NCBI GenBank assembly: GCA_030426845.1
Contig: JAUHXR010000054.1
Coordinates: 1-36,997 of the forward strand
Direction: 5' to 3'
DNA length: 36,997 nucleotides
From: Polyangia bacterium
Lineage (GTDB): Bacteria > Myxococcota_A > Polyangia > Polyangiales > Sandaracinaceae
In this document: positions 9,607 through 27,635 of the stretch, one piece after another
How positions within the stretch are numbered: the stretch's first letter is position 1
How the letters are laid out: every line of letters begins with the position of its first letter
Program-made: the position numbers and the translations under genes
Notes under the pieces: generated by a model
What the model was told of the DNA's origin: nothing
What the model saw: only the letters and a program-made list of their open reading frames with translations
Databases searched by the model: none

Positions 9607-11088
9607 CTACTGCTTGTCGAGCTTGCCGACGAGGCTGAGCGTGAAGCTCGCGCCCATGTACTTGAAGTGGGGGCGAACCTTGAGGCCGCAGCGGTACCAG
9701 CCGGGCTGGCCCTCGACGTCCTCGACGACCACCTGCGCAGCGCGCAGCGGCTTGCGCGAGCGCACCGCGGGGGCCGGGTTCTCCATGTCCACCACGTACT
9801 GACTGATCCACGTGTTCAGCTCGCGCTCGAGATCGGAGCGCTCCTTCCACGTCCCGATCTGCTCCCGCTGCATGACCTTCAGGTAATGCGAGAGGCGCGT
9901 GATGATGAACATGTAGGGGAGCTGAGTGCCGAGGCGGTAGTTCGTCTCGGCCGCCTTGCCCTCGGGCGTGTTGGCGAAGATCTTCGGCTTCTGGGCGCTG
10001 TTCGCGCTGAAGAACGCCGCGTTGTCGGAGTCCTTGCGGAACGTAAGGCCGATGAAGCCCTGCTCGCTCATCTCGTACTCGCGACGCTCGGTGAGCTGCA
10101 CCTCGGTCGGGCACTTGGTCTGGATCTCGCCCATCGCCTCGTACTGATGGAGCGGCAGGTTCTCCACCGCGCCGCCCGCCTGCGGGCCGATGATGTTCGG
10201 GCACCAGCGGTACTTGGCGAAGGAGTCAGCCACCCGGGTCGCGAGCGCGATCGCGGTGTGACCCCAGAGGTAGGAGTCGTGCTGCCCGATCACGTCCTCC
10301 TGGAAGTTGAACGACTTCACGGGGACGGTGTCGGGGCCGTAGGGCAGGCGCAGGAGGAAGCGCGGCGAGCACATCCCCACGTAGCGGCTGTCCTCGCTCT
10401 CGCGGAACGAGTGCCAGCGCGCGTACTGCGGACCCTCGAAGAGGCTCTGCAGGTCCTTGAGCTTCGGCAGCTCCTGGTACGAGTCGCAGCCGAACATCTG
10501 CGGCGAGCTGTTCGTGAGGAACGGCGCATGGGACATCGCGGAGACGCTCGCGATGTTCTGCATGAGCTGCATGTCCTGCGGGCCCGGGCCGAACTCGTAG
10601 TTGCCGACGAGGAGGCCGAACGGCTTGCCGCCGAAGGTGCCGTACTCGTTGGAGTACACGTGTCGGTAGAGACCGGACTTGACGATCTCGGGGCTGTCCT
10701 CGAAGTCCTCGAGGAGCTGCTCCTTGCTGATGTTGAGGAGCGAGACGCGGATGTTCTCGCGGAAGTTCACGTTGTCGATGAGGTACTTGAGACCCCGCCA
10801 CGTGGACTCGAGCCGCTGGAACTCTTTGTGGTGGAGGATCGCGTTGATCTGCGCGCTCATGCGCTGATCGATCTCCGCGATCATCGCGTCGACGACCGCC
10901 TTGTCGACGCGCTCGCCCTTGCGTGAGGGGGCGAGCATCTCCGTGACGAACGCCTGGATGCCGCGTCGCGCGACGTCGTAGGTCTCGTCCTCGGGCTTGA
11001 TCTTCGCCTCGGCGAGCATGCTCTCGAGCAGGGAGGCGTCCTCGGCGACCGCCTCCGCTCCTGCTTGTTGCGCTTCTTCTTCAGCCAT
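9607..11088 (-). CDS. tssC: T6SS contractile sheath large subunit TssC (VipB)
   Basis: At 493 residues it matches the usual TssC length. Recognisable segments: EFQRLESTWRGLKYLI, NISKEQLLEDFEDSPEIVKSG, FGLLVGNYEF, APFLTNSSPQMFG, the SPRFLLRLPYG block, and the conserved C-terminal half with NYRLGTQLPYMFIITRL. TssC co-assembles with TssB into the cytoplasmic sheath whose contraction drives the Hcp tube outward. tssB lies 40 bases upstream in the same direction, the normal tssB-tssC arrangement. The residues ahead of the conserved core form an Ala/Glu-rich tail. A hairpin follows the gene. Confidence 0.98.
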   Translation of the reverse strand: MAEEEAQQAGAEAVAEDASLLESMLAEAKIKPEDETYDVARRGIQAFVTEMLAPSRKGERVDKAVVDAMIAEIDQRMSAQINAILHHKEFQRLESTWRGLKYLIDNVNFRENIRVSLLNISKEQLLEDFEDSPEIVKSGLYRHVYSNEYGTFGGKPFGLLVGNYEFGPGPQDMQLMQNIASVSAMSHAPFLTNSSPQMFGCDSYQELPKLKDLQSLFEGPQYARWHSFRESEDSRYVGMCSPRFLLRLPYGPDTVPVKSFNFQEDVIGQHDSYLWGHTAIALATRVADSFAKYRWCPNIIGPQAGGAVENLPLHQYEAMGEIQTKCPTEVQLTERREYEMSEQGFIGLTFRKDSDNAAFFSANSAQKPKIFANTPEGKAAETNYRLGTQLPYMFIITRLSHYLKVMQREQIGTWKERSDLERELNTWISQYVVDMENPAPAVRSRKPLRAAQVVVEDVEGQPGWYRCGLKVRPHFKYMGASFTLSLVGKLDKQ

Positions 11089-11128
11089 CGTGATCTATCC
11101 CTCGTTCGCTGTTGAGCCGCCGAGCGGT

Positions 11129-11629
11129 CTACTCGTCCCCGCCCTCGTCGCCCATCCCGAGCTCGCCCATGAGGCGCTCGCGGGCGGCGTCGTCACCGAG
11201 CAGGCCCTGGATCTTCTTCCGGAACTTGGGGATGTTGCCCAGCGGCCCCTTGAGCGCGGTGAGCGCGTTGCGGAGCTGCATGAGCTGACGCAGCTCCGGC
11301 ACCTGCTCCGCGATGCCCTCTGGCGAGAAGTCCTTGAGCGTGTCGAACTTCAGGCTGACGGCCATCTCGTTGCCCGAGTCGCCCGAGAGCCGATCGTCGA
11401 CGTTGATGTCGAGGGAGAGCTTCTGCTCCGCCATCACCTCGGCGAAATTGTCCTTGTCGATGTTGATCGGCTTGCGCTCTTCGAGGGGCGTGTCGTCCGG
11501 CTTCCCGGTGTAGTCGCCCATCATCATGATGCGGAGCGGGAGCTCGACCTCTTCCTGCTGGTCGCCCGTCGCCGGCTTGTAGGTGATGTTCACGCGCTCC
11601 TTCGGCGCGACGGAACCCTCTTTGCCCAT
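11129..11629 (-). CDS. tssB: T6SS contractile sheath small subunit TssB (VipA)
   Basis: A 166-residue TssB. Diagnostic features: RVNITYKPATGD near the N-terminus, the ELPLRIMMMGDYTGKPDDTP block followed by RKPINIDKDNFAEVM, LKFDTLKDFSPEGIAEQVPE, and the C-terminal helix LRNALTALKGPLGNIPKFRK that interlocks with TssC and carries the ClpV-accessible region. The upstream GAGG lies next to the ATG. The 117-base gap to the upstream tssA stop is the largest in this operon and contains an imperfect palindrome at 11689-11700, so tssB-tssC may also have their own promoter. Confidence 0.98.
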   Translation of the reverse strand: MGKEGSVAPKERVNITYKPATGDQQEEVELPLRIMMMGDYTGKPDDTPLEERKPINIDKDNFAEVMAEQKLSLDINVDDRLSGDSGNEMAVSLKFDTLKDFSPEGIAEQVPELRQLMQLRNALTALKGPLGNIPKFRKKIQGLLGDDAARERLMGELGMGDEGGDE

Positions 11630-11688
11630 CCTCGTTCTCCAGTACGCGGAATCGTCGATGCCCCGCTCTACGGCGGTATCGCAGTCTG

Positions 11689-11705
11689 CCCAATATCGGG
11701 TTGGG
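11689..11705 (-). promoter_or_regulatory. candidate operator upstream of tssB
   Basis: CCCAATATCGGG (11689-11700) is a palindrome with one mismatched pair, and CCCAA (11689-11693) also pairs with TTGGG (11701-11705). It lies 60-76 bases upstream of the tssB start. ATATCGGGT from this element recurs in the hcp leader at 27575-27583. In such GC-rich DNA an AT-centred palindrome stands out, but no regulator is identified and chance cannot be excluded. Confidence 0.3.
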
Positions 11706-11746
11706 AAGGAACCCCTAGTTTTGCGGGGTCAGAGGCGTCCGGCGGC

Positions 11747-14047
11747 TCAGAGCGCGGTCTTGGACGCGGCCAGCGGATCGACCCGGCACAGCCGCCGGAA
11801 GACGGCCTGCGCGCGCTCCGGCGAGGCGCTCTCTTTCTTGAGCTGCTTCAGGCACGCGAGGTGACCTCGGTAGCAGCTCGCGGCGAGCTCCGGCTCCCAG
11901 CGTTCGAGGGCGACCGCGTCGATCTCGGCCTCGAGGCCCTCGTAGATCCCGTCGGCCGCGGCCGCGGTCGCGCCGCTCGAGAGCGCCTGCGCCATCGCGA
12001 GCCGAGCCCGGAACCGCGCGCGCCCGCTCCGCCCCGTCCCCGCGAGCTCGTCGAGCAACGCGAGCGCGTCGTCGAGCTTCCCGCTGGCCGCGAGCGAGCG
12101 CGCCTCCGAGAGGACCGAGGCGCCCTCTCCGTCCTCGCCGCCGCCGCCGCCGCCGCTCGGGATCACCTCCTGGCGGACCCACTCCTTGGTGAGGTCGCCC
12201 GCGAAGGGCATCCCGCCCGCGAAGGTCATCTCGAGCGTCTCGGGGAAGCGCAAGACCCAGTACGCGGTGCCCGCGATCGCCGCCGCCCGCGCCTCCTGGA
12301 ACTCCTTGCCCAGGTTGCCGAGCGCGAGCGCGGTGTACCGGTGCAGGTCGAACCAGAACGGCTTGGTCGCGAGCGCGGCCTCGGCCGCGATCACCAGGGG
12401 CTCCCACCGCTCGTTCTCGAGGTGCCCGGTGATCGCGCGGAGCGCCGGGTCGGGGGGCGGAGGCACCCGCGTCTCGACGCCCGCGTTGATCACCGGCGGC
12501 CGCGCGCCCAGCCCGAGCCCGAGGCGCACGAAGACGTAGGAGTGGGGATCGGCGAGGGTCGCGTCTCGCAGATCGCGCGCCGCCTTGCCGAGGGTGTGGG
12601 ACAGCTCGCGCGTGAACTTGGTGACCTCCTGCGGGTCCGCGAGCTGCGCGCTGACCCCGCCGAGCGAGACCGACGCCGCGGCCGCGGGAGGAGCCGCGGC
12701 GGCGCGGGGCGCGGGGGCGGGGGCCGCGGCTGCGGCCGGCTTGGGGGGCTCCGGCGCCTTGGGCGCGGGGAGCGACATCTTCAGCCGCTGCAGGTTGTCC
12801 GAGAGCGAGCGCGTGCTCGGCGCGGCGTCCTCGAACTTGTCGCGCACGACGTCGGTGAAGCGCTTCACCGCCACCTCGAGCCGCTCGATCGCAGGGCCGT
12901 CCTCGGCGCGCAGGGCGAGCTCGGGGAGCGGCGCCTCGAGCCGATCGATCAGCCAGCTCAGCGCGTTCGCTCGCCCGCGGAGTCGGCGGGCCGGCGGGTA
13001 GCAGTCGTCCCAGAAGCGCTCGCAGATCTGCGTGATCACCTCGAGGCCGACCGCGAGCCCTTCGAGCTGACGGAGCTCCCAGCCCGCGAAGGCGAGGTAG
13101 GCGGCGATCAGCAGGTCCTTGGACTTCTCGCGGAGCAGCGAGGTCGCGCGGCGCTCCACGTCCTCCCAGTCGACGCTCCCACCGGTCGGCGAGTCGAGGC
13201 CGATGATGTCGTTGCGGAGGCTCTCGTGGTTCGGCTCGTACTTGGCGTCGATCCCGGCCGGCGCCTCGCCGGGGATCGGCTGGACGAGCGGCGCGACCCG
13301 CTCGTCGAGCCAGGCGCGCGGGTCGTCGCCCTTGGGCGCGGCCTGAGCCGCGGGAGGGGCCGCGGCGGGAGGAGCCGCGGCGGGAGGAGCCGCGGCGGGA
13401 GCGGGCGCCGGATCGGTCGCTCCGGCGGGCGCGGCGGGGGGCGGCGTCGTGTCGGAAGCCGGAGCGGGCGCGGCGTCACCGGCGCGCTCGGGGAGCGTGA
13501 GCCGCATGCGCTCGAGCGCGTCCGCGACCGGGCGCAGGGCCGGGGCCTGGTCCTCGAAGCGCTCGGCCACCACCGCGCGCAGACGCTTCACCGCGGCGTC
13601 GAGCGCGTCGACCCCGTCGTGGTCGGTCGCGCCGATGGGGCGGTCCGGCAGGACGGTCTCGAGCCGATTCGCGAGCCAGTCGACCGCGTTCACCCGCGCG
13701 CGCACCCGACGGGCCGGCGGGTACATGCCGTCCCAGTAGCGGTCCATCGACTCGGCGAGGAGGAAGATCCCCGCGGCCAGCCCCACCAGGCCCTCGGTCT
13801 CGTAGAGCGCGTACGCGAGGTAGGACTCGATGAGCAGGTCCTTGCACTTGCTCGCAGTGACCTCGCCGCCCTCGGCGACGATCTTCTCCCAGTCCGGCAG
13901 GCCGCTCGCGGGATCCTCGAGCTTCGCCGCCTCGGCGCGCACCGACTCGTGCATCGGGTCGTAGCGGGCGTCCTCGCCGACGGGGTTCGCCTCCGAGATG
14001 GGCGCGAGCCAGGCCTCGATGCGCGCGCGTGCCGCTGCCTCGGTCAT
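11747..14047 (-). CDS. tssA: T6SS TssA-like baseplate/cap protein with duplicated ImpA_N module
   Basis: A 766-residue TssA homologue, longer than the usual 350-550. Two related ImpA_N modules are visible. Residues 10-188 contain GEDARYDPMHES, CKDLLIESYLAYAL and YPPARRVRARVNAVDWLANR; residues 243-426 contain GIDAKYEPNHES, SKDLLIAAYLAFAG and YPPARRLRGRANALSWLIDR. A Pro/Ala linker (190-240) separates them and another (428-460) follows. The C-terminal 300 residues resemble the helical VasJ-type TssA end. TssA proteins recruit the baseplate and guide or cap tail-tube/sheath growth. The ATG at 14047 is 21 bases after the tagF stop, consistent with an operon. The duplicated N-module is unusual; see findings. 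Confidence 0.93.
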   Translation of the reverse strand: MTEAAARARIEAWLAPISEANPVGEDARYDPMHESVRAEAAKLEDPASGLPDWEKIVAEGGEVTASKCKDLLIESYLAYALYETEGLVGLAAGIFLLAESMDRYWDGMYPPARRVRARVNAVDWLANRLETVLPDRPIGATDHDGVDALDAAVKRLRAVVAERFEDQAPALRPVADALERMRLTLPERAGDAAPAPASDTTPPPAAPAGATDPAPAPAAAPPAAAPPAAAPPAAQAAPKGDDPRAWLDERVAPLVQPIPGEAPAGIDAKYEPNHESLRNDIIGLDSPTGGSVDWEDVERRATSLLREKSKDLLIAAYLAFAGWELRQLEGLAVGLEVITQICERFWDDCYPPARRLRGRANALSWLIDRLEAPLPELALRAEDGPAIERLEVAVKRFTDVVRDKFEDAAPSTRSLSDNLQRLKMSLPAPKAPEPPKPAAAAAPAPAPRAAAAPPAAAASVSLGGVSAQLADPQEVTKFTRELSHTLGKAARDLRDATLADPHSYVFVRLGLGLGARPPVINAGVETRVPPPPDPALRAITGHLENERWEPLVIAAEAALATKPFWFDLHRYTALALGNLGKEFQEARAAAIAGTAYWVLRFPETLEMTFAGGMPFAGDLTKEWVRQEVIPSGGGGGGEDGEGASVLSEARSLAASGKLDDALALLDELAGTGRSGRARFRARLAMAQALSSGATAAAADGIYEGLEAEIDAVALERWEPELAASCYRGHLACLKQLKKESASPERAQAVFRRLCRVDPLAASKTAL
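13347..13403 (-). repeat. 15-bp tandem repeat coding the Ala/Pro linker of TssA
   Basis: Three successive 15-base units of GCCGCGGCGGGAGGA (13359-13373, 13374-13388, 13389-13403, the last ending GCG) follow a shorter related unit at 13347-13358. On the coding strand they give PAAAP-type pentapeptides in the linker between the two ImpA_N modules. The in-frame length means copy number could vary without frameshift. Confidence 0.8.
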
Positions 14048-14068
14048 GGTGCCTCCGCGGGGTTCGGT

Positions 14069-15022
14069 CTACCGAAGGGTGCCGGCCGTGGCGCGCTGCG
14101 CGAGCGTGTCCATCAGCCCGGAGAGCGGGGTGCTCTCGGAGACGTCGGCGAGGGCCGACGCCAGCGCCTCCTTGGCAGCCGTGACCGCCTTCTCCCGCTC
14201 CGTCGTCAGGGGCCACAGGCGCCCATGCTCGAGCTCCGGGTTGCTCAGGAACTGGAGAATGTTGAGCGGCGCGGGCCCGAGCGACAGCAGGAGGCGCGGC
14301 GCCGGGTCCTCCATCCAGAAGTACTGCGGGTGCGCGGGCGGGAAGCCGAAGACCCGCTTGGACAGCTCGAGCCACACGAAGAGATCGACGTCGACCTGCA
14401 CCGGGCAGTCGAGCACCGTCGACGGCTTGCCCGGATCCGACGAGGCCGAGTCCTGACAGGCGGTGAGGAACGTCTGGTAGGCGTAGAAGTGCATGCCGTC
14501 TTCACCGTCGAAGACGCGCTGGTGCACCTCGGCGGTGAGAGGATGGGCGAGCGCCTTGCGGGTGAGGTCCTCGGCGTGCGCCTGCTCGGGCTGTCCCGGC
14601 GCGGGGAGCGATCCGAGCGCGCTGCGCAGCGCGTCCCACTCCATCCCCGGCCGCTCGGGCGTGGACTGCGCGCCCTGCCCGAGGCTCGCCGCGGCGTCGA
14701 GGAACCGCGAGAACGCCATGGGCAACGCGCTGAAGCGCTGCGGCAGCGTGGCGGAGTCGGTGAGCGCGAAGAACACGATCGGGAACTTGCGCCCGACCTT
14801 GTCCTGACTCGGCACCATCACCGCGACGACCGTCTTCGCCGAGCCCGGCGGCGTGAACACGACGCGCACGGGGTGAGCCGGCATGTCGCCGCCCGCCCCG
14901 CGCAGGGCGTCGTTCGACTCGTTCACCCATTGCTCGAAGCTTCGGGCAGCGTCGTCCACCACGTTGTGGCGGACGAAGTCGCCCTTGGCGGGGATCTTTC
15001 CGAACAGCCCGAGCTCCGACAT
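14069..15022 (-). CDS. tagF: T6SS-associated protein TagF (ImpM family)
   Basis: A 317-residue protein beginning MSELGLFGKIPAKGDFVRHN, the classic TagF/ImpM N-terminus (G-x-GKxPxxGDF). The ATG at 15022 is chosen because this motif starts there and a GGAGAG lies just upstream; the longer frame adds 35 unrelated residues. Later segments include FEQWVNESNDAL, PVRVVFTPPGSAKT, GRKFPIVFFALTD and PAHPQYFWMED. In Pseudomonas and Agrobacterium, TagF is a post-translational repressor that acts through the FHA protein, independently of or alongside the PpkA/PppA kinase cycle. Here it heads the tagF-tssA-tssB-tssC operon, and both an FHA protein (34577-36010) and kinase/phosphatase genes are present, fitting that model. 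The length exceeds the short N-terminal domain, so extra C-terminal function is possible. Confidence 0.95.
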   Translation of the reverse strand: MSELGLFGKIPAKGDFVRHNVVDDAARSFEQWVNESNDALRGAGGDMPAHPVRVVFTPPGSAKTVVAVMVPSQDKVGRKFPIVFFALTDSATLPQRFSALPMAFSRFLDAAASLGQGAQSTPERPGMEWDALRSALGSLPAPGQPEQAHAEDLTRKALAHPLTAEVHQRVFDGEDGMHFYAYQTFLTACQDSASSDPGKPSTVLDCPVQVDVDLFVWLELSKRVFGFPPAHPQYFWMEDPAPRLLLSLGPAPLNILQFLSNPELEHGRLWPLTTEREKAVTAAKEALASALADVSESTPLSGLMDTLAQRATAGTLR

Positions 15023-15208
15023 CGACTCTCCCGGTGGAGGCGCCCGCGATGGAACCCCAAAAAGGGTCGGCAGGTCAATCGCGCGTGCCATCGACCTTCG
15101 ATACAGCCCCTCTTTGCCCCATCCCATGGACAGGCAGACCCCGGACCTGGCAGCCTCGCCTGCCCCGTTGGGGCGATGGACATCGGATCACGACCGACAC
15201 GCGCGCCC

Positions 15209-15236
15209 TTGCAAGAATCCCCTATTCGTGTACTTT
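15209..15236 (+). promoter_or_regulatory. weak promoter-like sequence before the kinase-receiver gene
   Basis: TTGCAA (15209-15214) and TACTTT (15231-15236) are spaced 16 bases apart in the most AT-rich part of the 15023-15244 divergent gap. The -10 match is poor and lies only eight bases before the ATG, so any transcript would be nearly leaderless. No convincing sigma-54 element was found for tagF on the other strand; a TGGCAC-like sequence there has the wrong spacing. Confidence 0.25.
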
Positions 15237-15244
15237 TCCACAAG

Positions 15245-16936
15245 ATGACCTCGGCCTCGCATCCTCGACCCATCCTGCGCGTCGCCGACAGCGCGCGGCC
15301 CGAGCGGGACCGGTCGGGGGACGTGGAGCTCGGCAGCTTCCGGCTCCTCGGCCTCCTCGGGCGCGGGTCCTTCGCCTCGGCGTACCTCGCCGACCAGCTC
15401 GGGACCGACCGCCAGGCGGTGGTGAAGATCGCCCACGCCGACCTGCTCCGCGACGGGCAGACCGAGGCGGTGAAGGCCCGCTTCCAGGACGAGGTCCGGG
15501 CCTCGACCCGGTGTCAGCATCCCAACCTGGTCACGCTCTACACCGCCGGTCAGACCGCCGACGGGCTGCCCGCGATCGCGATGGAGTTCGTCCCCGGCGA
15601 TCCGCTCGAAGCGCTCCTCGTCCGGTCGGCGCCGCTGCGGACCAGCTACCTGTCGTACTTCGCGCAGCTCACGAGCGTGCTCGCGACGATCCACCGGATG
15701 GGCATCGTCCACCGCGACGTGTCCCCCGGCAACGTCATCGTGACGCGCGACCACGACGGATCCCCGCGCGCCAAGCTCCTCGACTTCGGCATCGCCACGA
15801 TCCCGGGGGCCGCGGCCGGCACCGGCGCGATGGGGACCCCGCGCTACGCCGCCCCGGAGCAGATCCGCGGCGAGGCCCAGGCCGCCTCGGACATGTTCGC
15901 GCTCGGCGCGTGCCTCTGGTGGGCCCTCACCGGACGGCAGTACCTCGACGAGCTGGACTCCATCGACCGCATCGTGGCTCACCAGATGGAGCAGAGCCGC
16001 GCACCGGATCCGCGCACCATCAACCGCGACATCCTCCCCGCGCTCGCCGAGGTGACGTCCCGGCTCCTCAGCCCGCAGCCGGCGGACCGACCGACCTCCG
16101 CCGATCTCCTCGCGCAGTGGCCCCGGCTCATCGCCGAGGCGCGCCGCCACAGCCGCCGGATCGGGCGGACCAAGGTGTCCGTGTTCGGCTTGGACCCGCG
16201 GCGCAGGCCGCTGCAGGTCGTCATCGTCGACCCGAGCTCCATCAAGCGGCACCTCATCGGGAGCTACGCAGAGCGCCTCGGCTGCGAGGTCACGGTCGCC
16301 GACGACCCGCGCTCCCTCACCCGCGGCGAGATCGGCCCGTTCGACGTCGCGATCCTCCCGACCGAGCTGCCGAAGGTGGACGCGGCCGGGGTGTCGCGGC
16401 ACCTGCGCGAGCACTTCCCCGGCATGCGGGTGGTGCTGATGAGCAGCCACGGCGAGCGCGTGCTCGATCACGCGGACGCGGGCGCCGACATCCACCTCAC
16501 GGTGCCCGGCGAGCTGTCGCGCCTCGGCGAGTACCTCGACAGCCTGCGCCGCTCCGCCGGCCAGGACGGCGGTACCCCGATCAACACGCTCGAGCTCCAC
16601 GAGGCGGTCAGCTCGACCGTGCTCTCGTCGTGGCTCGCGCGGCCTCGACCGGAGCTGCAGGGCGCGGTCCGCGAGTTCGTCGGGGCGATGCCGACCCTCC
16701 TCGTCCAGCTCGACGGCATCGACCCGAACGCGGACCTCACCGACAAGTACGCGACGTGCGCCTCGATCGAAGAGCACGCGTCCTCCATCGGCGCGCTCCA
16801 CCTCGCGCGCCTGGCCAAGTCGCTGCGCCTCCTCCTCGAGGCGGGCGAGCTGCCCGATCCCGCCGGCTTCATCGCCGAGATCGAGGCCGAATACCAACGC
16901 GCCTTCCGAAGCCTTGTCCCGTATCTACGAACCTAG
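15245..16936 (+). CDS. Ser/Thr kinase fused to degenerate receiver and HPt-like domains
   Basis: A 563-residue protein, with ATG 15245 the first sensible start. Residues 30-290 form a Hanks-type kinase: LGRGSFASAY, VVKIAH with the ATP-binding Lys, HRDVSPGNVIV (His156/Asp158), Asp180 of DFG, and APEQ. Residues about 323-445 look like a response-regulator receiver (VVIVDPSS with Asp329; DVAILPTELP), but the phospho-acceptor Asp position is Pro372. Residues 460-563 resemble an HPt four-helix bundle (SIEEHASSIGALHLARLAKSL), with Ala506 where the phospho-His should be and Glu509/Glu510 in place of Lys-Gly. The kinase therefore looks active and the relay domains look like binding modules. It heads an operon with the TusA/DsrE protein (9-base gap) and a rhodanese. 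Domain calls beyond the kinase come from motif inspection. Confidence 0.88.
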   Translation: MTSASHPRPILRVADSARPERDRSGDVELGSFRLLGLLGRGSFASAYLADQLGTDRQAVVKIAHADLLRDGQTEAVKARFQDEVRASTRCQHPNLVTLYTAGQTADGLPAIAMEFVPGDPLEALLVRSAPLRTSYLSYFAQLTSVLATIHRMGIVHRDVSPGNVIVTRDHDGSPRAKLLDFGIATIPGAAAGTGAMGTPRYAAPEQIRGEAQAASDMFALGACLWWALTGRQYLDELDSIDRIVAHQMEQSRAPDPRTINRDILPALAEVTSRLLSPQPADRPTSADLLAQWPRLIAEARRHSRRIGRTKVSVFGLDPRRRPLQVVIVDPSSIKRHLIGSYAERLGCEVTVADDPRSLTRGEIGPFDVAILPTELPKVDAAGVSRHLREHFPGMRVVLMSSHGERVLDHADAGADIHLTVPGELSRLGEYLDSLRRSAGQDGGTPINTLELHEAVSSTVLSSWLARPRPELQGAVREFVGAMPTLLVQLDGIDPNADLTDKYATCASIEEHASSIGALHLARLAKSLRLLLEAGELPDPAGFIAEIEAEYQRAFRSLVPYLRT

Positions 16937-16945
16937 CGAGGTCCC

Positions 16946-18616
16946 ATGCCCAGCACGCAGATGATCGATTGCCGTGGTCAGCAGTGCCCCGCGCCCATCC
17001 TCGCGACCGCACGCGCGGCCAAGAGCCTCGGCCGCGACGGCGGCACGCTCGAGATCCTCGCGGACGACGACGCCTTCCCGCTGGACCTCGAGAGCTGGTG
17101 CCGCAGCTCGGGCGCGTCGCTCCTCGACCTCCAGAACCGGGACGGCGCGCATCGCGCCCTCGTCCGGGTGGGCGCGCCGACCGTGAAGGCCGCGCCGCCG
17201 CCTCCGCCGCCGCGCCCCGCGGCCGGGACCCAGGTCGTCGACTGCCGCGGCATGGAGTGCCCCGCGCCGATCCTCGAGGTCGCGCGCGCCGCGCGGGCCA
17301 ACCCGGGGATCGAGCTCGAGGTCCTGGCCGACGACGACGCCTTCGAGCTCGACATCGCGAGCTGGTGCCGCAGCGCCAAGGCCGACCTCGCCTCGATAAC
17401 GCGGACGGACGGCGTGTACCGCGCGGTGGTGCGCACGGCCGGCGCCGCGCCCCAAGTGGCTCCGCCGAGAGCGCCGCAGGCCGCGGCCCCGGCGGCGGCT
17501 CCCGCAACGTCTCAGGTCCGCGAGGTCACGCAGCAGATCGACTGCCGCGGGATGGAGTGCCCCCAGCCCCTCCTCGAGGTCGCGCGCGCGGCGCGCCAGC
17601 ACCCTGGCGCCACCCTCGAGGTGCTCGCCGACGACGACGCCTTCGAGCTCGACATCGCGAGCTGGTGCCGCAGCGCCAAGGCCGACCTCGTCTCCATCGA
17701 GCGGGTGTCCGGCGTGTTCCACGCGCGTGTGCAGCTCGCGGGCGGCCAGCCCCCCGTGGCGAGCGCGCCTCCCGCCTCGCTCACCCCGGCCACGCCGCCG
17801 CCCAGCCTCGCCGCGCCGGACCTCGTGCCGGGCGACGGAACGACCTTCCGGCTCGACCTCGGCGCGCTCGACCCGAGCCGCTACGACGACGAGCTCGAGC
17901 GGTCCTACCGCCAGACGCGCGCGAGTCGGCTCGCGGTGATCGCGCCCGACCGCCGCGCCAACGCGACCCTCCTGAAGTGGTGCACCGACGGTGGCCACGT
18001 GCTCGAGAGCCTGTCGGGTGCGGGGCCCGTCACGGCCGAGATCGCGCTGGCCCGCAGCCCCGAGCCAGCCGCCGCGTCCACCGCGCTCGCGCTCGCGCCG
18101 CAGTCGGCCGCCCTCGCCGCCCCCCGGCAGAAGCGCGCGGTGCTCCTCGTGCTCCACAACGACAAGGAGGCGCTCCTCGCCGCCCTCCTCGTCGCCAACG
18201 GCGCGGCCGCGCAGGGGATGGACGTGACGCTGTTCTTCACGTTCTGGGGCCTGAACCTGCTGCGCGGCGACGACCCGAACGGGATCTACCCGAAGGAGAA
18301 GGTCTCCTGGGCGCAGCGGCTCTTCAAGTGGCTGATGCCGGCCGGTCCCAAGCGCCAGGGGCTGGGCAAGCTCAACTTCGGCGGTATGGGCGCGAGCATG
18401 ATGAACACGCTGATGCGCAAGAAGAACATCATGGACCTGCCCGCGCTGCTCGAGAGCGCGCAGGATCAGGGGGTCCGCTTCGTCGCGTGCACCATGAGCA
18501 TGAACGTCATGGGAATCACCAAGCGCGACCTCCACCCTTACTCGACCCTGGTCTACGGTGGCGTCGCGACGTTCGTCGAAGATGCGGGGAACGCCGAGCT
18601 CAGTCTAGTCTTCTGA
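16946..18616 (+). CDS. poly-TusA sulfur-carrier protein fused to a DsrE/DsrF-like domain
   Basis: A 556-residue fusion. Three TusA modules each start with DCRGxxCPxP: Cys14 (QQCPAPIL), Cys105 (MECPAPIL) and Cys205 (MECPQPLL). Each continues with an ADDDAF block and a WCRS motif. A fourth module (about 297-370) keeps the second half (LAVIAPDRRANATLLKWC) but lacks the CPxP cysteine. Pro/Ala linkers join the modules. The C-terminal 160 residues are DsrE-like: AVLLVLHNDKEALLAALLVA, LFFTFWGLNLLRG, and the Cys-containing ACTMSMNVMGIT. TusA proteins carry sulfur as a Cys persulfide, and DsrE-type proteins act as partners in sulfur transfer. The gene is followed after three bases by a rhodanese, a usual sulfur donor, so the pair likely forms a cytoplasmic relay. 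Acceptor unknown. Confidence 0.9.
   Translation: MPSTQMIDCRGQQCPAPILATARAAKSLGRDGGTLEILADDDAFPLDLESWCRSSGASLLDLQNRDGAHRALVRVGAPTVKAAPPPPPPRPAAGTQVVDCRGMECPAPILEVARAARANPGIELEVLADDDAFELDIASWCRSAKADLASITRTDGVYRAVVRTAGAAPQVAPPRAPQAAAPAAAPATSQVREVTQQIDCRGMECPQPLLEVARAARQHPGATLEVLADDDAFELDIASWCRSAKADLVSIERVSGVFHARVQLAGGQPPVASAPPASLTPATPPPSLAAPDLVPGDGTTFRLDLGALDPSRYDDELERSYRQTRASRLAVIAPDRRANATLLKWCTDGGHVLESLSGAGPVTAEIALARSPEPAAASTALALAPQSAALAAPRQKRAVLLVLHNDKEALLAALLVANGAAAQGMDVTLFFTFWGLNLLRGDDPNGIYPKEKVSWAQRLFKWLMPAGPKRQGLGKLNFGGMGASMMNTLMRKKNIMDLPALLESAQDQGVRFVACTMSMNVMGITKRDLHPYSTLVYGGVATFVEDAGNAELSLVF
17327..17690 (+). repeat. 64-bp exact direct repeat, 300 bp apart, within TusA modules 2 and 3
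   Basis: Bases 17327-17390 are identical to 17627-17690; the span given covers both copies. They encode the same ADDDAF...SWCRSAKADL segment in the second and third TusA modules. Flanking sequence has diverged, including synonymous changes immediately upstream. This suggests recent internal duplication or gene conversion. The 300-base period keeps the frame, so unequal crossing over could add or drop a whole module. Confidence 0.95.
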
Positions 18617-18619
18617 GAC

Positions 18620-19258
18620 GTGACCCTCGACTCCCTCACCCCCATCGACGTCGTCGGCGCCGAGCAGCGCATCTTGCTCGTGGACATCCGCCCCCGCGAG
18701 GAGCGTCGCGCCGAGCTCGGCTACGTGCCGGGCAGCCTGGCGTTCCCCCTCGAGGAGCCGACCCCCGGCAAGCTCCTCGCGCTCGACGCGGAGCTGCTCG
18801 CCGACGAGCTCCCCGTGTTCGTGTGCACCTCGGGCCGGCGCAGCGGCCTGCTGCTCGCCGCGGCGCGCGAGGCCTTCGGGCGCCCGATCAGTCACCTCGC
18901 GGGCGGCGTGCTCGCCTGGCGCGCCGAGGGCTACGCGACCTGCGGCGTCAACGAGGTGGCCGAGGACGGGCTGCTCCGCCGAGTCGGCTCGACGACCGAC
19001 TTCGTCAAGGCCCTCCGCTCGTGCTTCGTGGCCGAGATGGTCGAGCGCTCGCTCGCCGTTCCCGATCCGATCGACCCGATGTCGCTCCTGACCCACTGCT
19101 TCGAGGCGGAGGGCGTGAGCAGCGACAACCCCGCCTACGACGACCTGCTCCGCGTGATCGACCGCATGGGGGTCGAGTCGTGGCGGCGGGGCAGCCCCGC
19201 GGACAAGATCGCCGAGAACACCGACCGGATGCGGGCCGCGCTCGCCCAGCTCGTCTGA
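18620..19258 (+). CDS. rhodanese-domain sulfurtransferase with uncharacterised C-terminal region
   Basis: A 212-residue protein starting at GTG, three bases after the stop of the TusA-DsrE gene, so translation is probably coupled. Residues 8-108 form a single rhodanese domain: VDIRPREE (Asp22), the active-site loop CTSGRRS with persulfide-forming Cys69, and HLAGGVLAWRAEGY near its end. The remaining 105 residues are helical, contain Cys residues (SCFVAEM, THCFEAEG) and match no family I know; the spacing resembles a small helical bundle. Rhodaneses take sulfane sulfur and hand it to carriers such as TusA, so the upstream poly-TusA protein is the likely acceptor. There is no signal peptide, so it is expected to be cytoplasmic. 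Confidence 0.9.
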   Translation: MTLDSLTPIDVVGAEQRILLVDIRPREERRAELGYVPGSLAFPLEEPTPGKLLALDAELLADELPVFVCTSGRRSGLLLAAAREAFGRPISHLAGGVLAWRAEGYATCGVNEVAEDGLLRRVGSTTDFVKALRSCFVAEMVERSLAVPDPIDPMSLLTHCFEAEGVSSDNPAYDDLLRVIDRMGVESWRRGSPADKIAENTDRMRAALAQLV

Positions 19259-19298
19259 GGTCGGAACACCCGAGGTCACCCGGTCGGTATCAGGCGGC

Positions 19299-20780: not shown

Positions 20781-20791
20781 GCGGCGCCCGA

Positions 20792-20842
20792 CCTCCCGTG
20801 CCGCTCAGCCTCCCGTGCCGCTCAGCCTCCCGAGCCGCTCAG
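20792..20842. repeat. 17-bp tandem repeat, three copies, between convergent genes
   Basis: CCTCCCGTGCCGCTCAG occurs at 20792-20808 and 20809-20825 and, with one T-to-A change, at 20826-20842. The array fills most of the 58-base gap between the lipoprotein stop and tssM. The tssM stop codon (20841-20839) lies within the third copy. Because the unit is not a multiple of three, expansion into tssM would alter its C-terminus. No hairpin or T tract makes this an obvious terminator. Confidence 0.9.
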
Positions 20843-23800
20843 CGGACGCGGCAGGTCGTGCGACCGGAGACGATCTCGCGCGGCGGGTCGACGTTGCGGC
20901 CGCGGACCGGCTGCATCAGCGGCGCCGAGCGGGTACGGCCGAAGACCCCGAAGAAGGGCGCGTCGCCGCGCACCGGGCGGATCTGGACCGCGACGTCGAC
21001 CTGGTGGTCGCGCAGCCGCCACGTCTGGGTGAACACCCGGTTGCCCCGCGACCGCGTGGTGACGGTGCCCTGCTCGAGGAGGCGGAACAGCCCCCACTCG
21101 CCGGTCTGCTCGAGCCGCTCGTGGATGCCGCCCTCGCCGCGGACCTCCAGGCTCGCCCCCGCCTCCGGGCTCTCGCCCGGCCAGGTGTAGCGGACCCAGC
21201 GCTCGGGCCCGTTGTGGTGCTCGTAACAGGTGCCACCGACGCAGAGCTCCTGGGTGGCGACCCGCGGCGACGGCACGATGCGCGCGTCGAAGCGCACGGT
21301 CGGCCCCTCCGCGTTGGGCGGGAAGAACACGTTGGTGATGTCGTTTGCGCGCTCCAGGTACTGCAGGAGCTGGCGGCGGTAGGCGTTGGACGCCTGCTGC
21401 CCGAGCGCGGTAGCGAACACGAAGGTGTCGCCCTCCTTCGGGATGCGGCGCTGGAGGACCTCGTTGTAGAAGGCCCAGAGCGTCCCCTCCTCCGGCATGT
21501 AGAAGGCGCCGAAGTCCTCGAGCGAGACGTCGTGCCCGCTCGGGTTCATCGGGTACCCGTTCAGGATGTTCCGGTGGTACGGCATGTACACCTCGGTGCA
21601 CCACGAGCGCCCCGCGCCCGCCGCCTGGCCCATCGCCACGCTGCTCGAGGAGCCCTCGATCGGCGGCCACAGCAGCGCCTCGATGCGAGGGCGCCAGCCG
21701 ATCTCCTGGCTCTCGATGAGCGCCCGGGTCGTCGTCCGCGCGGTCTGGAGCGCGGTCTGCAGCGCCTCGTCCGTGCCCTCGGGCGTGTCGAGGTGCGCCT
21801 GGAGCGCGTCGCGGACCTGGTGGAGCTGCTCCTCGTAGGTGCCGATGGGGACCTCCGGCGGCGGAGGCGGCTCCTGACCCTCGGGCGGGCTCTCCGGCGG
21901 CGGCGAGGCGCCGACCTTCGTGAAGCCCTCGAACGCGAGGTAGACGTGCTCGGGGGTGAGCTCCTCCTCCTGGTCCTCGCCCTCCTCGTCACCCCCCATC
22001 AGGTTGGTGCCCTGGAGGATGCGCGAGACCGTCTGGCCCCCGCGCACGCGCCGCACGCGACGCCAGAAGATGTCCCACGCGGTGTCGCTCAGGGCGTCGT
22101 CGCTGCCCTCGCCTTCCTCCGCCTCGGCGTTCGGGTCGGGCAGGAGCGTGTTGTAGAGGACCTGCTGGAAGAGCAGCCGATAGGGCTCGGGCGTGCCGCG
22201 CGTCAGGTCGCGCAGCCCACTCAAGGTCTGCACGTTTCCTTGCGGAGGAACCACGCGGATCGAGCGCAGGAAGTCGCGCCACTCGGTGATGTAGGCGCGG
22301 AAGAACTCGTTGCGGAGCTCCCGCATGTCGGCCGCGGCCTGCTCCTGATCCTGCTGGGCCTGCGCGCCCTCCGCGCCGAGGACCCAGGGCTCGCCGAAGA
22401 CGCCGGAGTCGGGCGACTCGAGCATCTCGCGGACCCGCGTGTCCCACGCGCGGCGGGTGAACGCGCCGCGGACCGTGCCGTCGGACTGCATCGGCCGGAC
22501 GGTGTTGCCCACGAGGTTCGCGAGCGTGAGGTCGTAGCCCATCGGCTCGATGTCAGCGATGATCCGCTCGAGCGCCATGTCGGTGCGCGAGACCCGGGTG
22601 AGGGCCCGCCGTACGCGCTGCACGGTGTCGTCGTCGCGCGGGAAGCGCAGCGACGCCTCGGGGGGCACGGAGTCGGGGTCGTCCGCGCGGCGCTCGTCCT
22701 CGCGGGCGAGCAGCGACGTGAACAGCTCCGCCTGGCGCTGCATCTCCTCGCGCGTCGCCTCCTCGACCTCCTCCTCGCCGCCCATCGACTCGAGCCAGCG
22801 CTCGGCGATGTGCGCGGAGAGCCACTCGGACGCGTCGTCGTCGTCGTCGAGGTTCGGCTCGCCGTCCTCCACCGGCCGGGTGACCAGGAGGTGCATCTTG
22901 AGCCGGTCGTACATGTCCGAGTGCTCGGGACCGGTCGGGATCGAGTTCCGCAGCGCCTCGTAGTTGCGCCCGAAGGTGTTCATCTCCGACTGGTCGTCGG
23001 CCACGATCGGCTGCACGACCTCCTCGCGGAGGAGCCCGGTGTAGTAGTCGCTCACCGGGTCGAGCAGATCGTCCTGGTACATCCCCAGGCGCATCATGAT
23101 CGGGGCGCCGGTCGAGTCGTAGGTCCGCATCAGCTCGACGCGTTGGCGCAGCGGACGCAGCGCGGCCGCGTCGATCGGCTCGCCCTCGGCGTCGCCGCGC
23201 GCGGCCGCGACCCGATCGACGATCTCCTCGGTCTCGTTGATGAACCCGCGGTTGTTCGCCCAGGCGATCGCGGGGAGCACCGAGATGAGGAGCGCGGCGC
23301 CGAAGATCGCGCCCGCCCACATGAACTGGTTGCGTCGCTGGCGGCGCTGCTCGCCCTCGCTGCGGGTGGCCACGTCGCGGTCCGGGAAGACCACGTCGAG
23401 GAACACGTCGCGGAGGAAGTAGCTCTTGGCCTCGGTGACGGGCTCGCCGAGGTTGACCTCGCTGCGGATGCCGAAGGCCTCGGCCATCTTGTGCATCACG
23501 CGGTCGATCGGGCGCCCCTCCTGGGTGCCCGACGAGAAGTAGACGCCGCGGAACATCGGCGTCTCGCCCATCACGCTCGACTCGAAGATCGTCGAGACGA
23601 GGTCGGTGCACGACTTGCGGAGGCTCACGAGCTGCTGCGGGAAGCTGTGGATCAGCTCCCGGTTCTCGATGCGGCGCTCCTCGCCCATCCGGCGGAGCGA
23701 GCGCTTCTCGACGATCGAGGTGAGCTCGTCGAAGCGCTCCTGGAAATGCAGGCCCGCGTCGGCCGGCGGCTCGGCCAGCGGGACGGTGAAGCCCCAGATC

Positions 23801-24606
23801 TGCCCGCGCTCCTGCTTGCTGAGGTCGCCGAACGTCTCGACGAAGCCCGGCACGAGGTCGGACTTCGTGAACAGCACGTAGACCGGGAGCGACATCTGGA
23901 GGCGGTTCTGCACCTCGTCGATCCGGTCGCGCATCCGGCGCGCGAGCGCGCTGACCTCCTCGTCGTGGGCGCCGCCGAGCTGGTCGAGGCCCACCGCCGC
24001 GATGATCCCGTTGAGCGGCTTCTCCGGGCGGAAGCGCTTCACGAGGTCGAGGAAGCCCATCCACTCCTGCTGGTCCTCGTCCTCCGTCGTCCAGCGGCCG
24101 GCCGTGTCGAGGAGCACCGCCTCGTTCGTCAGCCACCAGTCGCAGTTCCGCGTGCCGCCGACCCCGCGGACGCCGCCGCCGGAGGTCGACATGTACGGGA
24201 ACTGGAGGCCCGAGTTCCGGAGCGCGGTCGTCTTGCCAGCGCCGGGCGGGCCGACGATGAGGTGCCACGGGAGCGCGTAGAGCGCGTCCTCGCCGCCGCG
24301 GGCGATCTTGCTCTGCTTGAGCGCACCGATGGCCTTCTGGAACTCCTGCTGCATCTGCAGCAGCTCGGCCTGCATGTCGGGGCGCGCCGTCCGCGCCTGC
24401 TCGGCGGCCTGGGCCGCGAGGGCCTTCTCGAGCTCCTTGGCCGCGCGCCGAGCGCGCAGCCGTCGCGCGATGAACATCGCGAGGAGCACGATGGCCACCA
24501 CGGCGGTGACGATCGCGGGGATCCACCAGAGGTCACCCGGGAGGGCGAAGAGGTAGACCGCCCAGGCGGCGATCACCAGGACTGCGGCGAAAATATACTT
24601 GAGCAT
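20839..24606 (-). CDS. tssM: T6SS inner-membrane core protein TssM (IcmF)
   Basis: A 1255-residue TssM of normal length. Two transmembrane helices lie at about 3-21 and 28-47, followed by a cytoplasmic NTPase-like domain with Walker A GPPGAGKTT (119-127), LLDTAGRW and VYVLFTKSDLVPGF; a third membrane helix follows at about 430-450 (AGAIFGAALLISVLPAIAWA). The long remainder is periplasmic and ends in the beta-rich domain that contacts TssJ. TssM with TssL and TssJ forms the trans-envelope complex that anchors the baseplate. The Walker A is intact, so nucleotide binding is plausible. The start is three bases after the tssL stop. The end lies within a 17-bp tandem repeat. Confidence 0.98.
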   Translation of the reverse strand: MLKYIFAAVLVIAAWAVYLFALPGDLWWIPAIVTAVVAIVLLAMFIARRLRARRAAKELEKALAAQAAEQARTARPDMQAELLQMQQEFQKAIGALKQSKIARGGEDALYALPWHLIVGPPGAGKTTALRNSGLQFPYMSTSGGGVRGVGGTRNCDWWLTNEAVLLDTAGRWTTEDEDQQEWMGFLDLVKRFRPEKPLNGIIAAVGLDQLGGAHDEEVSALARRMRDRIDEVQNRLQMSLPVYVLFTKSDLVPGFVETFGDLSKQERGQIWGFTVPLAEPPADAGLHFQERFDELTSIVEKRSLRRMGEERRIENRELIHSFPQQLVSLRKSCTDLVSTIFESSVMGETPMFRGVYFSSGTQEGRPIDRVMHKMAEAFGIRSEVNLGEPVTEAKSYFLRDVFLDVVFPDRDVATRSEGEQRRQRRNQFMWAGAIFGAALLISVLPAIAWANNRGFINETEEIVDRVAAARGDAEGEPIDAAALRPLRQRVELMRTYDSTGAPIMMRLGMYQDDLLDPVSDYYTGLLREEVVQPIVADDQSEMNTFGRNYEALRNSIPTGPEHSDMYDRLKMHLLVTRPVEDGEPNLDDDDDASEWLSAHIAERWLESMGGEEEVEEATREEMQRQAELFTSLLAREDERRADDPDSVPPEASLRFPRDDDTVQRVRRALTRVSRTDMALERIIADIEPMGYDLTLANLVGNTVRPMQSDGTVRGAFTRRAWDTRVREMLESPDSGVFGEPWVLGAEGAQAQQDQEQAAADMRELRNEFFRAYITEWRDFLRSIRVVPPQGNVQTLSGLRDLTRGTPEPYRLLFQQVLYNTLLPDPNAEAEEGEGSDDALSDTAWDIFWRRVRRVRGGQTVSRILQGTNLMGGDEEGEDQEEELTPEHVYLAFEGFTKVGASPPPESPPEGQEPPPPPEVPIGTYEEQLHQVRDALQAHLDTPEGTDEALQTALQTARTTTRALIESQEIGWRPRIEALLWPPIEGSSSSVAMGQAAGAGRSWCTEVYMPYHRNILNGYPMNPSGHDVSLEDFGAFYMPEEGTLWAFYNEVLQRRIPKEGDTFVFATALGQQASNAYRRQLLQYLERANDITNVFFPPNAEGPTVRFDARIVPSPRVATQELCVGGTCYEHHNGPERWVRYTWPGESPEAGASLEVRGEGGIHERLEQTGEWGLFRLLEQGTVTTRSRGNRVFTQTWRLRDHQVDVAVQIRPVRGDAPFFGVFGRTRSAPLMQPVRGRNVDPPREIVSGRTTCRVR

Positions 24607-24609
24607 GTC

Positions 24610-25311
24610 TTATTGCCCGTCTGGCTCCCCCGAGCCCGACGTCCCGCCGGTCTCCTCGATGTGCTCGATGAGGTCATCGGCCTGCGAGCTGACGCTCCAC
24701 TGGAGCCCGAAGTAGATCCCGAGAGAGAGGACCACCGCCGCGATGCTGATGTAGACCAGCGGCATGTGGCTGCGGACCCCGCCCAGGTTCTCCTGCGGCC
24801 GCGCGGCGTGCGGCGACAGCGCGCTGTCCCCGATCATCCCCGCGCGAGACAGCGTCGAGCCGACCTCGTCGACGATGGAAGCGAGCTCGATCTCCCCGCC
24901 GCGTACGCGGTACTGCCCCTGGAAACCGAAGAGCAGGCAGAGGTAGTAGACCTTGAGCACTTCCATGCGTGAAGGATCGTGCCGGAGGTTGTTGAGGTTC
25001 GTGAAAAAACCTTCACCTGCGACGTTGGTGTTGAAGAGCTGCAGCTGCAGCGAGCGGGGCAACCAGTAGTCCCTCAGCTCGCCGCCCTTGCTCATCACCA
25101 GCTCGTCGGTCAGCGCGACGAGGGCGTAGCCGATGTCCTGCACGTCCTGCTGGGGGAACCCCACCTCGGACGCGCGACGCATCGCGCGGTCCACGAACGA
25201 GCGCATCCGCTGGTAGAGCATCTCGGGCATCGGCTGCGCGCGCTCGTCCGCGCGGCGGATCTGCGCGAGCGCGTTGAAGACTTCCTTGGTGACCTCGTTG
25301 ACGCGGTCCAT
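24610..25311 (-). CDS. tssL: T6SS inner-membrane protein TssL (DotU-type, short form)
   Basis: A 233-residue TssL. The N-terminal cytoplasmic domain carries the DotU signatures YALVALTDELVMSKG, LQLQLFNTNVAGEGFF and LKVYYLCLLFGFQGQYR. One C-terminal transmembrane helix (about 183-207, PLVYISIAAVVLSLGIYFGL) anchors it. There is no peptidoglycan-binding OmpA domain after the helix, only about 30 acidic residues, so cell-wall anchoring, if any, must come from another protein. The gene lies four bases after tssK and three before tssM, a compact operon. TssL links the membrane complex to the baseplate through TssK and TssE. Confidence 0.97.
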   Translation of the reverse strand: MDRVNEVTKEVFNALAQIRRADERAQPMPEMLYQRMRSFVDRAMRRASEVGFPQQDVQDIGYALVALTDELVMSKGGELRDYWLPRSLQLQLFNTNVAGEGFFTNLNNLRHDPSRMEVLKVYYLCLLFGFQGQYRVRGGEIELASIVDEVGSTLSRAGMIGDSALSPHAARPQENLGGVRSHMPLVYISIAAVVLSLGIYFGLQWSVSSQADDLIEHIEETGGTSGSGEPDGQ

Positions 25312-25315
25312 GGCA

Positions 25316-26674
25316 TCAGCCCTTTCTGGGGATCCCCAGTAGCTCGACCTTGGTCCCCTTCGGCTCGAACGGCCGGGGCAGGTACACGGCGACCTGACGG
25401 TCGGTCAGGATGTTCCGCCAGTAGTTGTTGCCCGTGGAGATCATGAAGTAGACGACGCCCGCCTTGATCGGGATCTCCGGCGGCGGGCGGTAGGTCACCT
25501 CGACCGCAGCGCCCGGCGTAGCCGCGCTGAGGATCGAGTTGATGTCGCCCCAGGAGGCCATCTTGCTCAGCCGCGGGAGCGTGGTCGCGATCTCCTGCTC
25601 GGGCAGCTCGGCGCGGATGCCGATCAGGTACTTCTCGCAGCCCATCAGGCGGTCGTCGGTCAGCTGGCCGAGGTACATCCCGTCCTCGCGTCCGTCGAGG
25701 AGGAGCGAGACGTAGTGCTCCTTGACCGTCGCCTGGAGCAGCTCGGTGAGGCGCGCGAAGAGCGGCTCGAAGGTGCTGCGCAGGTCGTTGTAGTTGAACT
25801 TGGGGAAGTTCGACGGGTCGAACTCGGCGCTGAACGTCGCGAGCTGGCCGCCGAGCGTGATGAGCCAGACGTAGGCGGTGCGCGGCGAGACCTCGGGCAG
25901 GTCCACGAAGTGGTTGAGCGCCGGCAGGTACGAGTTGATCGCGTTGAGCAGGAGGAAGCGCGTGATGTCGCGCGCGTTGTACTCGACGGTCGCGTCGCCG
26001 CGCTCGCGCTGCGCCTCGGCGAGCGCGCGCCGGCGCGTGCTCATCAGCCGCAGCAGGCGGCGCATCCCTGCGAGGATGAACTGCGAGGCCTCGATCCGGA
26101 GGACCGGCGGTATGTAGGGCTCGTTGATCGCGAGGTTGCCCGACGCGTCCCGGCAGACCTCGGCGACCTTGAGGGTGACGTAGTCGTCCTTGGGCTCGCT
26201 GCCGAAGAGGATCTGAAGGTTGCGCTGCCCGAAGGCGAGCTCGAGGCTCTGGCCCTCGCCGGTGAGGTCCGGCACCTGGCGGTTGGCCATCACGAAGCGC
26301 GCCCGGCCGCCGGCCTCCGTCGCGTAGTTCGCGACCCCGTCGCGCTCGCGCGGCACGCCGACGTAGACCTCGAGCACGTCCTGCGTGTGCGGGAAGTGAC
26401 CCTCGACCGGCCGCGACGCGGGCAGCTCGGGGTCGCCCGAGTCCGCGTTGATCACGAGGCCGTCGGGGAGCACGCCGGTCAGGCGGTGCACCCGGACCTG
26501 CCCGCTCTCGAGCGCGCGCCGATCGAGCTCCGCGTGCACGACGCCCCAGTTGAGCGGCTCGAGCGCGTCGAGGCGCGAGGACACCAGGTTCTCGTGATAG
26601 AGGTCCTGCTGCTGGAGGTGCTGGGGGCTCATCAAGAGCCCCTCCGACCAGACCACTCTCAGCGGTGTCTTCAT
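25316..26674 (-). CDS. tssK: T6SS baseplate protein TssK
   Basis: A 452-residue protein matching TssK in length and motifs: the N-terminal VVWSEGLLMSPQHLQQQDLY, DALEPLNWGV, ARDITRFLLLNAINSYLPAL, TAYVWLITLGGQLATF, and the C-terminal MISTGNNYWRNILTDRQVAVY. TssK forms trimers that connect the TssEFG wedge of the baseplate to the TssL/TssM membrane complex. It follows tssJ by 22 bases and precedes tssL by four, the conserved J-K-L order of many T6SS loci. I see no truncation or missing block. Confidence 0.98.
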   Translation of the reverse strand: MKTPLRVVWSEGLLMSPQHLQQQDLYHENLVSSRLDALEPLNWGVVHAELDRRALESGQVRVHRLTGVLPDGLVINADSGDPELPASRPVEGHFPHTQDVLEVYVGVPRERDGVANYATEAGGRARFVMANRQVPDLTGEGQSLELAFGQRNLQILFGSEPKDDYVTLKVAEVCRDASGNLAINEPYIPPVLRIEASQFILAGMRRLLRLMSTRRRALAEAQRERGDATVEYNARDITRFLLLNAINSYLPALNHFVDLPEVSPRTAYVWLITLGGQLATFSAEFDPSNFPKFNYNDLRSTFEPLFARLTELLQATVKEHYVSLLLDGREDGMYLGQLTDDRLMGCEKYLIGIRAELPEQEIATTLPRLSKMASWGDINSILSAATPGAAVEVTYRPPPEIPIKAGVVYFMISTGNNYWRNILTDRQVAVYLPRPFEPKGTKVELLGIPRKG

Positions 26675-26696
26675 GTCCTGCCTCGTCGTTCTCGGG

Positions 26697-27401: not shown

Positions 27402-27547
27402 CCGGGCTGGCCTCTTTCGAACGTGGACATCCGTGGTGTCTCGGAAACCTCGAGGAACCCGCCGCGCGATCGCAGGGAAAGGCGATGGATCCGGGCCGAA
27501 GCGTGCCTGACCCCAGCGGCGAAGGGCAACAAACCGAGATGCGGCGG

Positions 27548-27575
27548 TTTACAAGACCCGCCCGGTGGTTATCCA
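27548..27575 (+). promoter_or_regulatory. candidate hcp promoter
   Basis: TTTACA (27548-27553) and TATCCA (27570-27575) are spaced 16 bases apart, the best sigma-70-like pair in the 234-base hcp/tssJ divergent region, ending 60 bases before the hcp ATG. The -10 half is a weak match. I looked for a GG-N10-GC sigma-54 element here and found none convincing, although an FHA-type sigma-54 activator is encoded in the window. Confidence 0.35.
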
Positions 27576-27578
27576 TAT

Positions 27579-27598
27579 CGGGTCGCCGCGGTGACCCG
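27579..27598 (+). promoter_or_regulatory. inverted repeat in the hcp leader
   Basis: CGGGTC (27579-27584) pairs with GACCCG (27593-27598) across eight bases that can extend the stem. It lies just downstream of the candidate -10 and 37 bases before the ATG, so it could be an operator or an mRNA 5' stem-loop that stabilises the abundant hcp message. Confidence 0.35.
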
Positions 27599-27635
27599 CG
27601 GGACGCCAGAAGAGAACGAACAAGGAGAACCAACC

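Follow-up and report, generated by a model that had tools for sequence, protein, structure and literature searches.

A Ser/Thr kinase gene recurs beside TusA/DsrE2 and rhodanese genes across Myxococcota families

What do a Ser/Thr kinase and a set of sulfur-transfer genes have to do with each other, and with the T6SS genes that surround them? The question arises from a window of 36,997 nt, the whole stretch of Polyangia DNA analysed here, which belongs to a 9.4 Mb draft genome. Using ORFs and Pfam matches, we were able to confirm that a kinase gene, a poly-TusA/DsrE fusion gene and a rhodanese gene lie together at 15245-19258, as a reading made from the sequence alone had proposed, with intergenic gaps of 9 nt between the kinase and the TusA/DsrE2 gene and 3 nt between the TusA/DsrE2 gene and the rhodanese. 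The placement of the three genes between the tagF-tssABC and tssJKLM operons was likewise correct. To this we add that the block is encoded on the strand opposite to both flanking T6SS operons and is therefore not co-transcribed with the T6SS genes. The features of the locus are as follows.

9607..15127, - strand: tssC, tssB, tssA and tagF, left of the block and judged to be outside it
15245..16936, + strand: Ser/Thr (Hanks-type) kinase gene, 563 aa (PF00069, catalytic motifs, PknB-like model)
15344..16114, + strand: kinase domain, residues 34-290 (Pfam)
16202..16564, + strand: degenerate receiver domain, about residues 320-440 (PDB profile matches, beta-alpha pattern in the model)
16613..16933, + strand: degenerate HPt-derived helical bundle, residues 457-563 (Pfam Hpt in homologues, PDB HPt domains, helices in the model)
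16946..18616, + strand: poly-TusA/DsrE2 fusion gene, 556 aa (PF01206 three times, PF13686, alignment)
16958..17173, + strand: TusA domain 1, CPAP motif, Cys14 (Pfam)
17231..17440, + strand: TusA domain 2, CPAP motif, Cys105 (Pfam)
17531..17737, + strand: TusA domain 3, CPQP motif, Cys205 (Pfam)
17837..18055, + strand: TusA-like domain without CPxP and without Cys, residues 298-370 (hhalign)
18128..18607, + strand: DsrE2 domain, Cys515 in CTMSM (PF13686)
18620..19258, + strand: rhodanese with a helical C-terminal extension, 212 aa (PF00581, invariant Cys69, model)
18971..19246, + strand: helical extension of the rhodanese, motif SCFxAE (alignment, model)
20839..27401, - strand: tssM, tssL, tssK and tssJ, right of the block and judged to be outside it

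Whether these three genes form a unit can be judged from their relatives. We searched 96 near relatives, 289 genomes of the class and 282 genomes of the phylum (overlapping sets), together with genome contigs, and found the TusA/DsrE2 gene of the block in 24 Myxococcota genomes. Four loci are cut by contig ends, and 22 have enough upstream sequence to be informative. In 21 of them the gene immediately upstream, on the same strand, encodes a kinase, with kinase-TusA/DsrE2 gaps of -32 to +62 nt that include 4-nt overlaps, and these 21 loci represent nine families by the labels of the search tool. Plesiocystis pacifica SIR-1 is among the carriers and has the kinase and TusA/DsrE2 genes (L036). 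The sole kinase-less locus (L148, itself a further copy in G275) consists of TusA/DsrE2 and rhodanese. The rhodanese gene comes next after TusA/DsrE2 in 12 of the 20 loci that can be judged and is missing in the other 8, which comprise the majority of the Plesiocystis-like family as well as a few loci from elsewhere. When all flanks were compared against all, only the kinase, TusA/DsrE2 and rhodanese genes were held in common, apart from scattered generic kinases; the flanks yielded neither a conserved fourth partner gene nor a linked assimilation or oxidation partner gene. Additionally, a search with the kinase tail only picked up a single additional strong match beyond the known blocks, a kinase that likewise has a TusA gene directly downstream (a second kinase-TusA pair, in G168).

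At least 148 kinase matches were counted in the host genome (with up to 370 first-look candidates), so that a kinase neighbour would be met by chance in 2-5% of cases, a figure from which a binomial probability is an illustration only, the loci being related by descent. Such a kinase is absent from the vicinity of all 75 more distant TusA/DsrE2 loci compared, most of which belong to other phyla. The distances between kinases correlate with those between DsrE2 sequences (r=0.67, p<0.001), but chiefly because the kinases divide into two types; for the main type taken separately, r=0.31 (p=0.08). The kinase, TusA/DsrE2 and rhodanese genes are thus a real recurring unit across Myxococcota families. 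The sequence-only reading had treated the kinase and sulfur genes as one unit and had asked how often kinase and TusA genes are adjacent in relatives; adjacency is far from rare. We found no description of a kinase-TusA/DsrE2-rhodanese block in the open-access literature, and a kinase-linked sulfur relay is apparently a previously undescribed system.

A few loci carry more than one kinase. In L116 (5638-12918, -) the genes run in tandem as kinase-TusA/DsrE2-rhodanese-kinase-rhodanese, and the kinase placed second shares about 65% identity with that of L118. A second kinase of the same type adjoins the block at L169 10663-11796 (+), L170 10641-12128 (+) and L145 11865-13379 (-), either after TusA/DsrE2 or before the first kinase.

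The sulfur-transfer proteins of the window retain their active sites. The fusion protein matches PF01206 three times (E 6e-56) and PF13686, the DsrE2 family, at E 1e-40 (139.6 bits against a cut-off of 25). Cys14, Cys105 and Cys205 each stand in a CPxP motif, the mark of a TusA sulfurtransferase. The poly-TusA/DsrE fusion was therefore described correctly, and we add to it a fourth copy that has no CPxP Cys and that resembles the TusA-1 profile with an hhalign probability of 97.8% (E 1e-12). A TusA-like domain without CPxP lies ahead of DsrE2 in most members, and the number of TusA domains with a CPxP Cys varies from one to four per protein across homologues. Cys515 of DsrE2 is invariant in an alignment of 17 sequences. 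The rhodanese (PF00581) has the loop CTSGRRS, which fits the CxxGxR active-site pattern, and its active-site Cys69 is invariant in 13/13 sequences. Its structure model has a pLDDT of 91. A PDB comparison of the whole model gave matches taken up by the rhodanese domain and not by the tail, in which the Cys of the SCFxAE motif is kept in 11/13 sequences; the helical tail is apparently new.

The closest known arrangement is rhd-tusA-dsrE2, an established sulfur-transfer gene set of sulfur oxidizers such as Allochromatium vinosum and others (PMC4175335). The block shares with it the same three sulfur-transfer modules, their tight linkage and their active Cys residues. It differs in that TusA is multiplied (1-4 active copies plus the copy without CPxP) and fused to DsrE2, in that the rhodanese comes last, and in that a kinase is added. 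The DsrE2 part is also divergent, scoring 59.6 bits against a cut-off of 210 for the NCBIfam equivalog NF047629. No SoxB or DsrA match exceeds the cut-off in the 24 block-positive genomes, which are draft assemblies, and this speaks against dissimilatory sulfur oxidation as the role of the block. Other bacteria and one Myxococcales MAG also use Rhodanese, TusA and DsrE2 as one unit, fused to a CoA-disulfide-reductase-like enzyme (e.g. L039 and L038, about 865 aa). The partner in those fusions is an FAD/NAD(P)H disulfide reductase (Pyr_redox_2); in the block a Ser/Thr kinase takes its place, the rhodanese has a gene of its own and the proteins have no Pyr_redox domain. A kinase-regulated variant of rhd-tusA-dsrE2 is our best reading of the block.

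The kinase itself looks active, as had been proposed. The window kinase matches PF00069 (E 9e-35) and keeps all the catalytic motifs of a Hanks-type kinase, namely the Lys (VVKIAH), HRD (HRDVSPGN) and DFG. Its model resembles PknB both in fold and in catalytic residues (Z 29.6, 257 aligned, rmsd 2.2). It is unlike PknB in its tail, which consists of a degenerate receiver and HPt; the PknB equivalog gives 153 of 450 bits, short of the cut-off, and no PASTA or sensor domain was found in the block kinase. At two loci, L151 7106-8824 (+) and L171 1638-3383 (-), the HRD/DFG residues are lost, leaving pseudokinases that keep the tail and the position. Family f5 and G272 have a second kinase type with an extra degenerate kinase domain and an unplaced C-terminal domain. 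That this position can be filled by either of two kinase types speaks for a requirement for a kinase as such. For the C-terminal domain of the second type (L116-L118, L154), which has no PDB match, we do not claim homology to the receiver-like tail (hhalign E 0.09). PADLOC gave only generic kinase-domain matches and none for TusA or rhodanese, and we set aside a reading of the block as a defence system.

The tail of the kinase was described as receiver-like and HPt-like, and this stands as ancestry. Residues 325-428 match PF00072 at 29.4 bits, slightly below the cut-off, and profile comparison with PDB receivers gives E 1.7e-10. The following helical part matches PDB HPt domains at E 4.7e-7, and Pfam Hpt is found in 7/11 homologues (best E 1.4e-7). 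A function in phosphotransfer does not stand. The receiver phosphoacceptor position, an Asp at the end of beta 3, is Pro372 in the window kinase, and the Asp is absent in 9/10 kinases with the receiver-like domain, being present only in L152. The HPt His site is Ala506, and none of the 12 kinases compared has a phosphoaccepting His there. Phosphotransfer is not expected from a tail that has lost both acceptors, and this rules out a phosphorelay through it. On our best reading of the sequences, the tail would be a docking tail. Directly before the lost His, the window kinase has Cys505, and a Cys is found at this position in 9/12 kinases, though not in all; we speculate that it could be a redox or sulfur site.

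How might the parts work together? Our tentative reading, just short of probable, is that the block encodes a cytoplasmic relay for sulfane sulfur whose regulatory partner is the Ser/Thr kinase beside it. The rhodanese would take sulfane sulfur from a low-molecular-weight donor and pass it as a Cys-persulfide to the TusA array, whose one to four active domains on flexible linkers could act as a buffer or as a multi-site carrier. From the array the sulfur would move to the Cys of the fused DsrE2 domain and on to an acceptor. The kinase is predicted to use its degenerate receiver/HPt tail for docking on the relay, and it would either gate the relay by phosphorylating it or be switched by the relay's sulfur load. 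The direction of sulfur flow, the phosphorylation target and the physical contact are here what we infer. Coupling of the kinase to the sulfur genes is strengthened by an adjacency that is conserved in 21/22 loci while no other flanking gene is kept. Against it stand the kinase-less L148, the rhodanese missing in 8/20 loci, the distance correlation that comes mainly from the split between kinase types, and the fact that the kinase could act on other targets. Since the module persists at two loci where the kinase is catalytically dead, gating or scaffolding by the kinase is somewhat more likely than an output through kinase activity.

Sulfane-sulfur relays are known as metabolic carriers, and here one is kept beside a eukaryotic-type kinase across nine families. 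That the relay and the kinase stay together while other neighbours change predicts a direct link from sulfur chemistry to protein phosphorylation. A broader proposal, conceivable and held with less confidence than a kinase-regulated relay, is that this is a Myxococcota signalling system in which control runs both ways between the Ser/Thr kinase and a TusA array that carries persulfide. The receiver/HPt tail would then have been converted from phosphotransfer to docking on the sulfur relay, possibly with the Cys beside the lost phospho-His as a switch. Because the active-site Cys and kinase residues are clear, a direct test is feasible both in vitro and in a cultured strain.

The roles could also be reversed, with the relay as the sensor and the kinase as its output: the kinase would be switched toward targets elsewhere by sulfur loading of the TusA array or by persulfide formation on its own tail (e.g. 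at Cys505). Myxococcota signal with many kinases, the Cys beside the lost HPt His is there in 9/12 kinases, a TusA copy number that varies (1-4) is fitting for a load sensor, and no assimilation or oxidation partner gene is linked. We nevertheless regard this as unlikely, given that the pseudokinases at L151 and L171 could give no kinase output and that Cys505 is not universal.

It is improbable that the adjacency is passive, the remnant of an old operon whose kinase and relay have no functional contact. The kinase-relay interaction is a prediction, and L148 does without a kinase; yet the adjacency has been kept across nine families while all other neighbours change, and the second kinase-TusA pair in G168 and the second kinase-rhodanese pair in L116 also speak for a working connection.

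In E. coli, 2-thiouridine synthesis draws on TusA and DsrE-type proteins. By this precedent the relay could supply a biosynthetic acceptor, through tRNA thiolation or a sulfur-containing cofactor, with the kinase tuning it to the growth state. TusA with IscS is covered in PMC2854127. We consider a biosynthetic role quite improbable for the block, which has no further conserved gene beside it and a patchy distribution (41/289 genomes with any match at 1e-20, and fewer with the block) that is unsuited to a core tRNA modification.

This leaves the T6SS genes. The sequence-only reading had speculated that the relay modifies or protects a T6SS component or effector, and here the evidence is against it. 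We found no T6SS genes in the flanks of the other block loci, so that linkage with tss genes, which should be conserved for a T6SS accessory, is confined to the window among the loci examined, and the block is widespread at loci without T6SS genes. TssC is present in 12/18 block-positive and 27/61 block-negative genomes, a difference that is not significant (Fisher p=0.11; p=0.28 without a weak G008 match), and several block-positive genomes have no TssC, e.g. G112, which is 99% complete. G005, of the same family, has an orthologous T6SS locus (TssC 92% and TssM 76% identical) whose tagF-tssM slot is about 3 kb long and holds no block gene; the G005 block is on another contig. Several other T6SS loci have tagF and tssM adjacent or almost adjacent, and the slot between them is variable. 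In the window (15127-20839) it holds the block and a lipoprotein-like ORF without a Pfam match (19299-20777, between the rhodanese and tssM), and in G005 (L181 5809-8786) it holds a different lipoprotein-like ORF and low-complexity DNA. On synteny, co-occurrence and the blockless orthologous locus together we reject T6SS coupling, and the position of the block inside the T6SS cluster of this genome is accidental. The interpretation of the locus is corrected accordingly: the coupling of kinase and sulfur genes stands, and that to the T6SS falls.

The T6SS locus of the window has a PP2C phosphatase (886-2064, +), a second Ser/Thr kinase near it (3189-4349, +), TagF (14069-15127, -) and an FHA protein (34577-36007, +), which resemble a threonine phosphorylation pathway set (PpkA/PppA/Fha/TagF) independent of the block kinase. 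A kinase, a PP2C phosphatase and an FHA protein are known components of this pathway (PMC5995506, PMC6082577). That the block kinase is itself a PpkA-like threonine-phosphorylation kinase, with the sulfur genes as passengers, is very improbable, for although it adjoins tagF in a window that also has the PP2C and FHA genes, its orthologues adjoin TusA/DsrE2 and not T6SS genes in every other genome, block kinases are unlinked to the T6SS at the other loci examined, G005 lacks such a kinase in the tagF-tssM slot of its orthologous T6SS locus, and the window has its second kinase near the PP2C.

Two further observations concern contractile systems. A weak Hcp match (E 6e-5) falls in the C-terminal part of a long ORF (26673-28139, +) that overlaps tssJ on the opposite strand, and there is probably a shorter hcp gene near 27.7-28.1 kb within this ORF. 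Divergent second sheath-like proteins of the VipB family, about 619 aa, are found in G005 (C75:27036-27782) and G008 (C368:8768-9514), where they are perhaps part of another contractile system.
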